Assembly: GCA_021788625.1 (NCBI GenBank)
Contig: JAJYKL010000009.1
Coordinates: forward strand, 1 to 64,000
From: Chloroflexota bacterium
GTDB taxonomy: Bacteria > Chloroflexota > Anaerolineae > J036 > Brachytrichaceae
DNA: 64,000 nucleotides
Reading direction: 5' to 3'
The notes below the pieces were generated by a model that was given only the letters and a program-made list of their open reading frames with translations, was not told the origin of the DNA and made no database searches. Positions 34,663-41,336 of this stretch are shown here, piece after piece. The first letter of the stretch is position 1; every line of letters starts with the position of its first letter. The position numbers and the translations under genes were made by a program.

Positions 34663-34691
34663 TTGACAGTGGAGTATGTTTCGAGTAGCAT
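34663..34691 (+). promoter_or_regulatory. Candidate sigma-70-type promoter of the aromatic operon
   Basis: TTGACA (34663-34668), 17-bp spacer, TAGCAT (34686-34691). Confidence 0.5.
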
Positions 34692-34815
34692 GTGTGCCAT
34701 TCAAATGGCTTGCGCACGATCGTATTTCGGCTATTTTGGCTACTATGGCTACTTTACCTGGCGTAAAGGGAGCTTACTCTCACGCAAGCCCAGCTCAGAG
34801 GAAATACCAGAATAG
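34690..34815 (+). CDS. Putative aromatic amino acid leader peptide (attenuator peptide)
   Basis: Read by hand; absent from the ORF track (under 60 aa): MCAIQMACARSYFGYFGYYGYFTWRKGSLLSRKPSSEEIPE*; alternative start ATG at 34705. Confidence 0.7.
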   Translation: MCAIQMACARSYFGYFGYYGYFTWRKGSLLSRKPSSEEIPE

Positions 34816-34833
34816 CTGAGAAAAGAAAACATT

Positions 34834-34871
34834 GAGGGCGCGGAGTGGTAAGCTCCGCGCCCTCTTTTTTT
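34834..34871 (+). terminator. Intrinsic terminator/attenuator hairpin in the leader of aroH
   Basis: GAGGGCGCGGAG-tggtaag-CTCCGCGCCCTC followed by TTTTTTT. Confidence 0.9.
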
Positions 34872-34921: not shown

Positions 34922-35287
34922 ATGTGGGTACGCGGAGTACGCGGTGCGACGATGGTGCGCGATAACACGCGCGAAGCGATCCTGGATGCTACGCGCGAGA
35001 TGCTGCAAGAATTGGTGGAGGCCAATGGCATCCAGGTGGATGAAATCGCCAGTGCATTCTTCAGTACCACGCGCGATCTGAACGCCGACTACCCGGCCCT
35101 GGCCGCACGGCAATTAGGCTGGACTGACGTGGCATTGATGTGTATGCACGAGATGGATGTTCCGCATGGCCTGCCGCGCATCGTGCGTGTGATGCTGCAC
35201 TGGAACACGACGAAGAAATCCGACCAGATTGTGCACGTCTACCTGAATGGAGCAGAAGCACTCCGACCGGACCGGAGCAGAGGCTGA
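34922..35287 (+). CDS. aroH: Chorismate mutase, AroH type
   Basis: [67 protein letters not shown]. Confidence 0.93.
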
Positions 35288-35309: not shown

Positions 35310-36335
35310 ATGGTCATTATTATGAAAACTGGGGCGACAGGGAAAGAGATTGATGCGGTGGTGGCGCGTATCGAGTCGATGAGCTTCCGCGCGCACGCAA
35401 TCTATGGCGAGGAACGCACCATCATCGGCGTAGTGGGTAATGATCGGCCACTAGACCGCACAATCTTTGAAACCATGACTGGTGTCGAGACGACCGTGCC
35501 CATCCTCAAGCCATATAAACTGGCCAGCCGCGAGTTCAAGAAGGAGAACAGCATCATCTCGCTCTTCGGAAATGGCACCGGAGTGAAGGTAGGCGGCGAA
35601 GACATCGTGGTGATCGCCGGCCCCTGTTCTGCAGAGAATCGCCAGCAGGTGCTGGAGACTGCTCATGCCGTGAAAGAAGCGGGTGCCAAAGCCTTGCGCG
35701 GCGGGGCGTATAAACCGCGCACATCACCTTATTCGTTCCAGGGCTATGGGGAGGAGGCGCTTAAGTGGCTGGCCGAGGCGCGCGAGCAGACTGGACTGGC
35801 GGTAGTGACCGAGGTCATGGCTGCTGAACAGGTGCCACTCGTCAGCCAGTACGCCAATGTCCTGCAAGTTGGTGCACGCAATATGCAGAACTTCTATCTT
35901 CTAAATGCTGTTGGCATGAGTATGAAACCAGTGCTCCTGAAACGCGGAATGATGAGTACCGTGGAGGAATTGTTGATGGCAGCCGAATACATTCTATCGA
36001 ACGGCAACTATAACGTGATGCTGTGCGAGCGCGGCATTCGCACCTTTGAAACCTCCACCCGCAACACACTCGACATCAATGCTGTACCCGTACTTAAAAA
36101 ATTGAGCCATCTGCCGGTGATCGTCGATCCCAGCCATGCTACCGGCAAGTCCGAATACGTGACGTCTACCAGCCGGGCTGCCATTGCTGCCGGTGCGGAT
36201 GGGCTGATCGTGGAGGTGCACCCCGACCCCAGCTCCGCTCTATCTGATGGTGCCCAGTCTCTGACGCCCGAACAGTTTGGCGACCTGGTGCGCCAGACGC
36301 GCCGGATCGCCCAGGCGATGGACCGACAGATTTGA
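35310..36335 (+). CDS. aroF: 3-deoxy-7-phosphoheptulonate (DAHP) synthase, copy 1
   Basis: N-terminal [22 protein letters not shown] domain; [53 protein letters not shown]. Confidence 0.93.
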
Positions 36336-36348
36336 AGGAGATGCGGTA

Positions 36349-37383
36349 ATGGTCATTATTATGCGCGCGGGAGCGACCGCGCAGGAAATCGGAACCGTTG
36401 TCCAGCAGATCGAGCACGTTGGCATGCGTCCGCACCTGTCACAAGGCGAGGAACGAACCATCATCGGTGTGGTCGGTGATGAGCGGCCCATAGACCGTAC
36501 CGTTTTCGAGCTGCTGCCAGGTGTGGATCGGGTAGTGCCCATTTTGCGGCCATACAAACTCGCCAGCCGGGACTTTAAAAAAGATGACACGGTGATTACG
36601 ATCACCCCAGAAAATGGGAAACCGATCAAAATCGGCAACGTTAAAAACGGCCTGGCAATGATGGCTGGGCCGTGTGCCGTCGAGAGCCGGCAGCAGATCA
36701 TCGAGACAGCTCATAGGGTGAAGGAGGCTGGTGCGAATGTTTTGCGCGGGGGAGCGTATAAGCCGCGCACATCGCCATACTCGTTCCAGGGCTATGGTGA
36801 AGATGCTCTGAAGTGGCTGGCTGAGGCGCGTGAAGAGACGGGTCTGGCCGTGGTGACAGAGGTCATGTCACCAGACCTGGTACCACTGGTCAGCCACTAT
36901 GCCGACATTTTACAGGTAGGCGCGCGCAATATGCAGAACTTCGCACTTCTGAACGCTGTGGGGCTGAGCCGGCGACCGGTGCTCCTGAAGCGCGGCATGA
37001 TGAGCACGATGGAAGAGCTGCTCATGGCGGCAGAATACATCCTTTCCAACGGCAACTACAACGTGATGCTATGCGAGCGTGGCATCCGCACCTTCGAGAC
37101 CTACACCCGTAATACACTGGACATCAATGCGGTGCCGGTTTTGAAGATGCTCAGCCACCTGCCCGTGATTGTGGATCCCAGCCATGCCACTGGCAAGTGG
37201 GAGTACGTCACGGCGGTATCTCGTGCAGCCGTCGCGGCTGGTGCTGACGGTCTGATCGTTGAAGTGCATCCCCATCCGACCGAAGCGCTCTCCGATGGCG
37301 CGCAATCGCTCACACCCGAGAACTATGTCAGCCTCGTCACGCAGGTGAGGCGCGTTGCCCAAGCCGTTGACCGGATCGTATAA
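36349..37383 (+). CDS. aroF: 3-deoxy-7-phosphoheptulonate (DAHP) synthase, copy 2
   Basis: [75 protein letters not shown]; close paralogue of the preceding gene. Confidence 0.93.
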
Positions 37384-37432
37384 GCGTGGGTGTTTCAGTC
37401 TGAAGGTTGCGTTTTATTTTACAATCGCTTCC

Positions 37433-38347
37433 GTGAATCAAGATGACCCGTTACAACCGCCTGTAGAGATTGACAACCTGTGCATCGTTGGGCTGGGATT
37501 GATGGGCGCATCCCTGGCCATGGCCGTGCGTGAGCACGCCAGCCAACCTGGTAGCCCTCTGCGGGTGCGCCATATCACCGGCGTGGCGCGCCGCCAGGAA
37601 ACGGTTCGTCAAGGTCTTGCACGAGGGATTGTAGACGAGGCCGGCACCGATTTCGCTGTTGGAGTGAGTCGCGCAGACGTGGTAGTACTGGCTGCCCCCG
37701 TACGCACCATCCTTTCGCAGTTGCGCACTCAGGCAGATGCCTTCATGGCTGGAGCAACGGTGACAGACCTGGGCAGTACCAAACTGGCCATCGTACAGGC
37801 CATGGACCACCTTCCAGAAGGCGTGCACGCTGTCGGCTCGCATCCCATGTGCGGCAAAGAAGTGACGGGATTGGACGCAGCCGATGCTCATTTGTATCAG
37901 GGAAAACGCTGGATCCTCACACGAACAGCACGCACTTCTGACTCCTCGCTTGACCTGATCCAGCGGCTGGCGCTGACAGCCGGCGCGGTGACGCTGGAGC
38001 TGGACGCGACCCGACACGATAGGCTGGTCGCGTTTGCCAGCCACCTGCCCTATGCTGTGGCCATTTCACTTATTACGGCCACGGAGCAAGCTAGCCTCGA
38101 TGACTCGACCTTATGGCAGGTAACGGCCAGTGGCTTTCGCGATACCAGTCGTGTTGCGGCCAGTGATGTGACCATGATGATGGATATTCTGCTGACCAAT
38201 CGAGAGGCTGTTTGTGGTGCGATCCGCGATTTCCAGTTTGCACTGGACCAGCTTACCGCGTTAATCGAACGTCAAGATGAGGCAGGCTTGCGTGCGTACT
38301 TGACCGCTGCTGCGCAGGCGCGTCAAACGAACGGAGCGCACTGGTAG
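37433..38347 (+). CDS. tyrA: Prephenate dehydrogenase
   Basis: IDNLCIVGLGLMGASLAMAVRE..VTDLGSTKLAIVQAMDHLPEGVHAVGSHPMCGKEVTG; likely GTG start. Confidence 0.9.
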   Translation: MNQDDPLQPPVEIDNLCIVGLGLMGASLAMAVREHASQPGSPLRVRHITGVARRQETVRQGLARGIVDEAGTDFAVGVSRADVVVLAAPVRTILSQLRTQADAFMAGATVTDLGSTKLAIVQAMDHLPEGVHAVGSHPMCGKEVTGLDAADAHLYQGKRWILTRTARTSDSSLDLIQRLALTAGAVTLELDATRHDRLVAFASHLPYAVAISLITATEQASLDDSTLWQVTASGFRDTSRVAASDVTMMMDILLTNREAVCGAIRDFQFALDQLTALIERQDEAGLRAYLTAAAQARQTNGAHW

Positions 38348-38431: not shown

Positions 38432-39832
38432 ATGATTAAGGAAATATACCCTCCCCGGCAACTAAACGGCGTACTGCGGGTGCCCGGTGATCGCAGCATC
38501 ACGGTGCGTGCCATTCTACTCGGTTCTATTGCCGACGGCACCAGTGTTGTGCGCGAATACCTTGACTGCGACGACACAGGTGCGTCGGTCAATATTATGC
38601 GAGAACTGGGCATTGATATACATGAAGAGCGAGACAACGGCTCGATGTTGCGCATTCACGGAGCCAGCATGCACGGACTGCATGCCGCACGTCAGGAGCT
38701 CTTCTGCAACTCGTCTGGCACAACCATGCGTCTACTGGCTGGGTTGATGGCCGGCCAGACTTTTGCCAGTACGATCGATGGCAGTGAACAACTGCGCAAC
38801 CGGCCCATGCGTCGCATTGTGGAACCCCTGACGCGAATGGGTGCGCTGATCAGCAGCACCAGTGATCATGCTCCGCTCTACATCAAACCAGCCAATCTGC
38901 ATGGCATCGACTACCTGATGCAGGTAGCCAGTGCACAGGTGAAATCAGCGCTGTTATTGGCCGCTCTGTACGCCGATGGAGACGTGATCATCCGCGAAAC
39001 TGCAACCACACGTGACCACACCGAGCGCATGTTATCGGCGATGGGTGTGGCTGTTCGTTATGGTCACCAAAATGGCGACGGATCATCGCACGCTGCACTC
39101 CAGGCTTCTGAAGAGTCGAGGTTGTTGCCGCAAAGTAGCGGGCAAACACCAGTTGTAGATCGGCAAATATCGATCCCGAGCCGTCAATTGCCCGGTGCCT
39201 TGCATCCATTGGATATGACCGTGCCTGCCGATTTCTCCTCCGCTGCGTTTTTTCTGGTCGCTGCGATACTGCACCCCCACTCGCGATTGGAGCTGCCTGG
39301 TACTGGTCTGAACCCCACGCGTACTGGTTTGCTCGAAGCCCTGCGTGCAATGGGTGCTGTCGTAACGGTGCAAAACTCGGGTTTACAGGGTGGGGAACCT
39401 GTTGGCGACTTAGTACCTGTCACGAGCCGTTTGCGAGCGATGGAAGTGAGCGGCGCACTGACATCCTTGATGATCGATGAATTTCCCATCTTCGCCGTGG
39501 CGGCAACTCAGGCTGTGGGGACAACAGTGGTGCGTAATGCCGAGGAGTTGCGTGTGAAAGAGTCGAACCGCATCGACGATTTGGTCGTGGAGCTGCGCAA
39601 GATGGGAGCGCACATCGAAGCCACATCCGATGGTTTTATTGTCGCGGGGCCTGCAACGCTGCGTGGAGCCGTCGTGGACGCCCATGGCGACCATCGCATG
39701 GCCATGTCGTTAGCCGTGGCAGGGCTCATTGCAGAGGGCAAGACGACTCTGACCGGTGCGGAATGTGTCAGCAAGACGTACCCAGGATTCTTTGACGACC
39801 TGGCGGCAATCAGTGCATCCAGCGATAAATGA
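38432..39832 (+). CDS. aroA: 3-phosphoshikimate 1-carboxyvinyltransferase (EPSP synthase)
   Basis: LRVPGDRSITVRAILLGSIADGTS..NSSGTTMRLLAGLMAGQ..RVKESNRIDDLVVELRKMGA..DHRMAMSLAVAGL. Confidence 0.92.
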   Translation: MIKEIYPPRQLNGVLRVPGDRSITVRAILLGSIADGTSVVREYLDCDDTGASVNIMRELGIDIHEERDNGSMLRIHGASMHGLHAARQELFCNSSGTTMRLLAGLMAGQTFASTIDGSEQLRNRPMRRIVEPLTRMGALISSTSDHAPLYIKPANLHGIDYLMQVASAQVKSALLLAALYADGDVIIRETATTRDHTERMLSAMGVAVRYGHQNGDGSSHAALQASEESRLLPQSSGQTPVVDRQISIPSRQLPGALHPLDMTVPADFSSAAFFLVAAILHPHSRLELPGTGLNPTRTGLLEALRAMGAVVTVQNSGLQGGEPVGDLVPVTSRLRAMEVSGALTSLMIDEFPIFAVAATQAVGTTVVRNAEELRVKESNRIDDLVVELRKMGAHIEATSDGFIVAGPATLRGAVVDAHGDHRMAMSLAVAGLIAEGKTTLTGAECVSKTYPGFFDDLAAISASSDK

Positions 39833-40461
39833 TGAGCACACAAAACGAACCACAGTGGTTGATATGGGCGCGAGCATTGCAGGCTCACGCACAGGACGGT
39901 CTGGCTTATTGTAAAGACCCATATGACATCGAACGCTTTAGCGCCGTTCAGCAGATTGCCGCGGAAATCATGGCGACTTATGCAGGCATCGATGCGCAAC
40001 AGGTGCTGGATCTGTTCAAGCAGGAGACAGGTTACGCCACGCCCAAGGTGGATGTGCGCGCCGTGGTTTTCCGTGGCGACGCGTTGTTGCTGGTGCGGGA
40101 GATCTCTGATGGAGGCTGGACACTTCCGGGAGGCTGGGCTGACGTTGGAGAAGCACCCGGAGAGGCAGCAGCGCGGGAAACACTTGAGGAATCTGGTTTC
40201 CAGGTCCGGGCATCAAAGCTGTTGGCTGTATACGACCGCAACCGGCACGGACATCCGGCACTCCCCTCTTATGTGTACAAGCTCTTCTTCCGCTGCGATT
40301 TACTCGGTGGTGTGCCGACGGAAAGTCGGGAGACGGACGCAGTCGGTTTCTTTCGCGAAGGTGAGCTACCCGAACTATCACTGACGCGTGTCACACCGGG
40401 CGAAATCAAACGTATGTTCGAGCATCATCGCCATTCCAACTGGCCGACGGATTTCGACTGA
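39829..40461 (+). CDS. NUDIX hydrolase
   Basis: Nudix box GGWADVGEAPGEAAARETLEESGFQ; overlaps aroA by 4 nt. Confidence 0.92.
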   Translation: MMSTQNEPQWLIWARALQAHAQDGLAYCKDPYDIERFSAVQQIAAEIMATYAGIDAQQVLDLFKQETGYATPKVDVRAVVFRGDALLLVREISDGGWTLPGGWADVGEAPGEAAARETLEESGFQVRASKLLAVYDRNRHGHPALPSYVYKLFFRCDLLGGVPTESRETDAVGFFREGELPELSLTRVTPGEIKRMFEHHRHSNWPTDFD

Positions 40462-41336
40462 TGCGTGTCGGATTGATTGGACATCCGGTGGCGCACAGCG
40501 CTTCACCACGTATGCAGGATGCAGCATTTGCTGCTGTGGGGTTGGACTGGCGCTACGAGTTATGGGACACTCCGCTGGATGAGCTGCCGGAGCGCGTGCG
40601 CATGATTCGCGAGAGAGATGACATCGCCGGTGCGAACGTCACGATCCCGCACAAGCAAAATATCATCCCGCTGCTGGACGACATCTCAACCCATGCGCTT
40701 GCGATCGGCGCCGTGAACACGATAATCAAAACCCGTACAGGCACTGAAAACCCTATCGCACCATCCCGGCAGCGATTGGTTGGCGATAATACCGACTGGC
40801 TTGGGTTTCTGGCAGATCTGCGCTTCCATGATATACAGCCTGAGGCGCTAACCCAGGCGCTGGTGCTGGGAGCTGGTGGGTCGGCACGAGGTATCTGTTA
40901 TGCCCTCGGATGTAGCGGTGCGCAGGTATATGTTCTGAACCGCACTAAAGCTCACGCCGAACAACTCGTTGACTCGCTAAGCTGGCATTTACCGCTGGGT
41001 CGAATACAGGCTGGTCCACTCTCCGCCCAAGCCATCGGTGAGTTGAATGACATTGACCTCATCGTGAACTGCACCTCTGCGGGTATGTCACCCAATGAGA
41101 GCACATCACCCTGGCCGAATGAGGCCAAATTCCCTGTTGGCGCCATCCTTTACGATCTGGTCTACAAACCGCGCCAGACACACCTGATGCACCAGGCCTC
41201 CCAGGCTGGTCTGCGCGTGATTGGCGGACTGGGGATGCTGGCGATGCAAGGCGCTGCCTCGTTCCAGTTTTGGACCCACATACCGGACTCACGTGTGGCA
41301 GTCATCATGAGGAAAGTATTGAATGAGCAAGCATAA
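40461..41336 (+). CDS. aroE: Shikimate dehydrogenase
   Basis: MRVGLIGHPVAHSASPRMQDAAFAAVGLDWRYE..GANVTIPHKQNI..LGAGGSARGICYAL. Confidence 0.93.
   Translation: MRVGLIGHPVAHSASPRMQDAAFAAVGLDWRYELWDTPLDELPERVRMIRERDDIAGANVTIPHKQNIIPLLDDISTHALAIGAVNTIIKTRTGTENPIAPSRQRLVGDNTDWLGFLADLRFHDIQPEALTQALVLGAGGSARGICYALGCSGAQVYVLNRTKAHAEQLVDSLSWHLPLGRIQAGPLSAQAIGELNDIDLIVNCTSAGMSPNESTSPWPNEAKFPVGAILYDLVYKPRQTHLMHQASQAGLRVIGGLGMLAMQGAASFQFWTHIPDSRVAVIMRKVLNEQA

Follow-up and report, generated by a model that had tools for sequence, protein, structure and literature searches.

A predicted Tyr/Phe leader-peptide attenuator ahead of aroH and DAHP synthase genes in Chloroflexota

Introduction

The attenuators of the trp, phe, and his operons use a leader peptide dense in the regulated amino acid, followed by an intrinsic terminator. 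Those of Escherichia coli pheL/pheA, pheST, and trpL sense Phe alone or Trp alone. The closest precedent for the locus described here is aroR, the leader of aroF in Corynebacterium glutamicum (Neshat et al. 2014; PMC11802643, PMC4046766), in which a leader with Phe and Tyr codons precedes a DAHP synthase operon and acts by ribosome-mediated attenuation. This actinobacterial leader has only Phe-Tyr-Phe, and it responds to Phe but not to Tyr (PMC11802643, which also names the three E. coli attenuators). The ilvBNC leader of C. glutamicum serves branched-chain amino acids and is also a leader peptide that lacks a ribosome binding site (Morbach et al. 2000, cited in PMC4046766). T-box riboswitches (RF00230) likewise sense tRNA charging through premature termination, and trpE T-boxes are already known in Dehalococcoides (PMC2494555). 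A 2010 survey reported leader-peptide attenuation as known only in Proteobacteria and Actinobacteria and added the Firmicutes (PMC2965389), and a later Rfam-based survey raised the possibility that attenuator motifs arose in gamma-proteobacteria (PMC3766115). Our searches of open-access papers turned up no description of a leader-peptide attenuator in Chloroflexota, although this does not prove priority.

Here we describe a locus in a Chloroflexota bacterium of the Brachytrichaceae, within a window comprising the first 64,000 nucleotides of contig JAJYKL010000009.1 (assembly GCA_021788625.1). We read it as a transcription attenuator of the ribosome-mediated kind, in which the leader peptide would gauge how much charged tRNA-Tyr and tRNA-Phe is available, and assign this reading a probability of roughly 90%. 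The reading draws on the leader, promoter motif, terminator, computed mutually exclusive pairings, conservation, and operon content, all seen in the sequence or by comparison. The Chloroflexota leaders resemble aroR in function and gene, but hold runs in which about 7 of 10 residues are aromatic, and aroH is usually the first gene. They share with the E. coli systems a leader rich in the regulated amino acids, a terminator, and a predicted competing antiterminator and 1-2-3-4 layout, but they mix Tyr and Phe and place segment 2 within the leader ORF. The ilvBNC leader belongs to another phylum than the window leader.

Results

The leader and its promoter. The following features lie at the 5' end of the transcript:

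34663..34691, + strand: sigma-70-type promoter, TTGACA-17-TAGCAT, 10/12 consensus matches, with a predicted transcription start at ~34698
34705..34815, + strand: leader peptide ORF, MACARSYFGYFGYYGYFTWRKGSLLSRKPSSEEIPE and stop, beginning at the ATG that is the relatives' start in alignment
34723..34761, + strand: run of Tyr/Phe(/Trp) codons at which stalling is predicted

The short aromatic-rich ORF upstream of aroH, translated as MCAIQMACARSYFGYFGYYGYFTWRKGSLLSRKPSSEEIPE, ends at the TAG codon at 34813-34815; sequence and an ORF check confirm that 14 of its residues (SYFGYFGYYGYFTW) include 5 Tyr, 3 Phe, and 1 Trp, as the earlier note on this DNA had reported, with the single Trp at the end of the aromatic run. 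The density of 7 aromatic residues in 10 amino acids is reached in 0/40 dinucleotide shuffles of the upstream region, which mostly give 2 to 4. The note had begun this ORF at ATG 34690, and here it needs amendment, because that codon overlaps the -10 hexamer TAGCAT (34686-34691), which follows a perfect TTGACA at 34663 after a 17-nt spacer. The mRNA would thus start near 34698 and the leader probably at ATG 34705. The predicted transcription start lies downstream of ATG 34690 but upstream of the in-frame ATG 34705, and so does not speak against an attenuator. A start at TTG 34651 was also considered and, like ATG 34690, was rejected as lying in or 5' of the promoter. Of 14 family loci, 13 carry the motif TTGACA-17-TAnnnT at a distance of 12 to 20 nt before the leader ATG. 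The leader mRNA has no Shine-Dalgarno sequence, and the predicted 5' UTR is only ~7 nt long.

Terminator and competing structures. Four RNA elements are located within and downstream of the leader ORF:

34707..34714, + strand: segment 1 (GGCTTGCG), pairing with 34783-34790 of segment 2
34752..34768, + strand: small hairpin CTTTAC-CTGGC-GTAAAG, between the run and segment 2, with covariation in 14 sequences
34771..34791, + strand: segment 2, the antiterminator strand within the leader ORF (AGCTTACTCTCACGCAAGCCC), forming 17 bp with 34836-34854
34834..34871, + strand: intrinsic terminator, segments 3 and 4 with a T7 tail, dG about -28 kcal/mol

The terminator that the earlier note had described is present, with a G+C-rich hairpin of 12 to 13 bp (34834-34864) located 18 nt past the leader stop and followed by T7, and aroH starts 51 nt further on. 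It is stronger than in shuffles, and the RNA fold of the leader region has a z of -5.6 relative to shuffles; the minimum-energy fold also pairs the Tyr codons with the stop-codon region in a long helix that looks incidental. The antiterminator strand that had been judged by eye at 34777-34792 proved real but longer, and its partners include both the 5' arm and the loop of the terminator (34836-34854).

Strong intrinsic terminators are common, and this one might simply end another transcript, with the ORF there by chance. The gene 5' of the leader is, however, on the minus strand, so the terminator ends no other upstream gene on the plus strand, and dozens of genomes have a dense leader with a terminator upstream of aroH or DAHP synthase; we give this explanation almost no weight.

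The controlled operon. The genes that follow the attenuator are these:

34922..35287, + strand: aroH, type I chorismate mutase, first structural gene (PF07736, E 7.9e-47)
35310..36335, + strand: DAHP synthase 1 (PF00793/PF18152)
36349..37383, + strand: DAHP synthase 2, a tandem paralogue (PF00793/PF18152)
37355..38347, + strand: prephenate dehydrogenase (tyrA), Tyr branch (PF02153/PF20463)
38432..39832, + strand: EPSP synthase (aroA) (PF00275)
39829-40461, + strand: Nudix gene (PF00293)
40461..41336, + strand: shikimate dehydrogenase (aroE), after the Nudix gene (PF08501)

No trp gene is among the operon genes in the window. At the other leader loci, DAHP synthase lies downstream in nearly all and pheA in 20/70, in a gene-content survey whose queries did not include trp genes. 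The genes after the leaders include those of the common pathway and the Tyr/Phe branch, coding for chorismate mutase, DAHP synthase, and prephenate dehydrogenase or dehydratase. The two DAHP synthases (35310-37383) are 74% identical and the pair is kept in several relatives; perhaps they differ in feedback regulation.

Distribution among Chloroflexota. Upstream regions were collected through AroH searches of relatives, named GTDB genomes, and an even sample of the phylum. By our own tally, 43 of the 61 Chloroflexota aroH loci in the named set have a dense leader and a terminator, with 7 more slightly under the density cut, compared with 0/19 aroH loci from other phyla (Planctomycetes, Desulfobacterota, and Acidobacteria), one of which is dense enough but lacks a terminator. 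The strict test is passed by 27/86 loci in the even sample, including 12/13 from the window's class; the rest are mostly in families f48, f58, f84, and f87, and most other families lack the leader. Judged from the named loci, the second leader-bearing group looks like the Chloroflexia (Chloroflexus, Roseiflexus, and Oscillochloris). Where members of the window's own family have no aroH, the leader can precede DAHP synthase instead (L119, L120, L122, L124, L125, and L128). Nearly all loci with a dense leader have a terminator after it.

For comparison we used 66 distinct aroH-linked leaders, mainly from Chloroflexota and chosen for aromatic density; identical stretches were removed, but near-identical ones were kept and some loci are from the same genomes, so the leaders are not fully independent. 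A terminator follows each of the 66, at a median of 25 nt past the stop.

Two other groups of loci have related peptides. Family f51 (L213, L215, L220, and L226) has a conserved leader-like peptide upstream of aroH (MTGRVRFAGFYFYAYLGPARDRLGMG in L213), but the test used found no intrinsic terminator at its dense runs, and perhaps translational control or Rho acts there. A short ORF ending in NRYDGYYFTGSQLRPASSP lies upstream of aroH in L099 (Singulisphaera, Planctomycetes); it is weak, with 4 of 10, and may be a leader outside Chloroflexota.

Pairing across loci. The earlier note had proposed looking for an alternative antiterminator pairing, and such a 2:3 pairing was found, with a mean z of -2.6 and p<0.05 in 48/66 loci against dinucleotide shuffles of segment 2. 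In alignments of the window family that were anchored by hand, as were those for the 1:2 helix and small hairpin, 110/119 cells of the 2:3 helix pair versus 38 to 53 in slid controls, and most pairs are invariant. The SLL codons AGC TTA CTC, which match the terminator loop, are nearly nucleotide-invariant in this family. The 1:2 helix is paired in 59/64 cells, versus 5 to 29 in slid controls, and at least three of its pairs show compensatory double changes among close relatives (e.g., G-C to A-U and U-A to C-G), but it is weak in the wider set (14/66 loci, mean z -0.7). The small hairpin beside the run has A-U/G-C and C-G/G-C double changes among its 14 sequences and may serve as a spacer or pause signal. 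The median distance from the end of the run to segment 2 is 14 nt, and that from the end of segment 2 to the stop is 10 nt, which fits a ribosome in the run leaving segment 2 free and one near the stop covering it. We note that in L119 and L120 a self-complementary hairpin forms the end of segment 2 at the leader stop (CGCGAG-AAC-CTCGCG in L119), possibly a different protector of termination.

These RNA-level constraints on segment 2 and the small hairpin, together with the strong fold, are also what would be seen if the aromatic run were a by-product of an untranslated T-rich RNA element such as a riboswitch, pause, or protein site. At the gathering score, however, Rfam has no leader or riboswitch in the window, its only match being a tRNA elsewhere, and the "uncatalogued" of the earlier note holds to that extent. 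Moreover, distant leaders have no sequence in common; what they share is their Tyr/Phe content, in an open frame whose stop precedes the terminator, and an untranslated element is very improbable.

The switch. Under the attenuator reading, we infer translation of the leader, ribosome stalling, a response to Tyr and Phe, and a dependence on timing, as follows. Transcription would start near 34698 and a ribosome would initiate at ATG 34705. With ample Tyr-tRNA and Phe-tRNA, the ribosome would pass the aromatic codons and cover segment 2 (34771-34791) while the polymerase makes segment 3, which could then pair with segment 4 (34834-34864) and stop transcription before aroH. With either amino acid short, the ribosome would stall in the run and leave segment 2 free; this strand would then pair with 34836-34854 (segment 3 plus the terminator loop), permitting readthrough into aroH and the shikimate and Tyr/Phe genes. 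The 1:2 pairing would be a competing helix that favors termination when segment 1 holds no ribosome.

This was modeled by static folding of the nascent RNA up to 34854 with ribosome-blocked segments. The probability of the 2:3 helix, P(2:3), is 0.84 to 0.98 for most run codons, and about 0 when the ribosome occupies 34762-34801. A static switch fails to account for three of the results: P(2:3) drops to 0.14 to 0.35 at codons 34741-34747, returns to 0.98 with a ribosome on the stop codon at 34813, and is 0.01 with the ribosome absent. Termination must therefore depend either on timing or on the 1:2 helix. When the RNA is folded at full length, the terminator invariably outcompetes 2:3, so the choice must precede transcription of segment 4.

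Which amino acids are sensed. Both Tyr and Phe are present in 66/66 leaders, in agreement with the conservation of the run that the earlier note's proposal called for, and Trp is present in 24/66; the totals are 227 Tyr, 249 Phe, and 29 Trp. Density is itself no evidence, as the leaders were picked for it, but the split among Tyr, Phe, and Trp is. Within the run there are 470 aromatic codons in the leader frame, itself chosen for density, versus 117 and 122 in the two alternative frames. The Tyr codons TAT and TAC are used about equally, and the respective counts of Tyr and Phe range from 7 and 1 in L020 to 2 and 7 in L036. Sensing of both Tyr and Phe is thus supported at the level of leader sequence.

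The earlier note had proposed that one leader senses all three aromatic amino acids, since a Trp codon ends the run in the window, and Trp does occur in a minority of the leaders. As a property of the system this did not hold up: 42/66 leaders have no Trp, the window operon has no trp gene, and a ribosome on the Trp codon gives a P(2:3) of only 0.19 in the folding model. In addition, trpE in the same genome has its own T-box upstream (L142:448-731; RF00230, E 4.8e-21, 92.3 bits versus a cut-off of 93), whose specifier position, GAA-UGG-A, is read as UGG (Trp). Three-way sensing is thus quite unlikely. The trpE T-box is also a positive control for the RF00230 search, which gave no match at the aroH leader. 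Two further T-boxes in this genome precede genes resembling valS (L147) and leuS (L148), and no leaders were found upstream of its pheA and pheS.

It is somewhat more plausible, although still unlikely, that just one of Tyr and Phe matters in vivo, as with aroR, whose Phe-Tyr-Phe leader responds to Phe only (PMC11802643). The Chloroflexota runs are longer than that of aroR, however, and both amino acids are retained in every one of the 66 leaders despite turnover of the surrounding sequence. Family f71 (L182, L195, and L180) has Tyr runs almost without Phe upstream of aroH (SFYYYYRQ, RYGYYYQP, and DRYYYRRP), possibly Tyr-only leaders.

Discussion

The proposal of the earlier note, a leader-peptide attenuator of a shikimate operon, is supported at the sequence level by the terminator, the antiterminator, and the conservation. 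Its novelty is partial: the locus is uncatalogued in Rfam, but the idea has a precedent in C. glutamicum aroR (PMC11802643, PMC4046766). This kind of attenuation is textbook knowledge, and it is the Chloroflexota family that appears undescribed. The boldest reading, which we consider somewhat more likely than not, is a phylum-scale, dual Tyr/Phe attenuator family widespread in two Chloroflexota groups, with turnover of sequence but retention of both amino acids, Tyr sensed by stalling (not seen for aroR), and a Trp T-box at trpE in the same cell.

These observations would place attenuator logic in Chloroflexota and on the genes of entry into the shikimate pathway, where tyrosine is a likely signal. 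A single genome would divide the work between two sensors of tRNA charging, with Trp read by a T-box and Tyr and Phe by a translated leader, and the many fast-diverging leaders are a natural collection from which to learn the rules of attenuator evolution.
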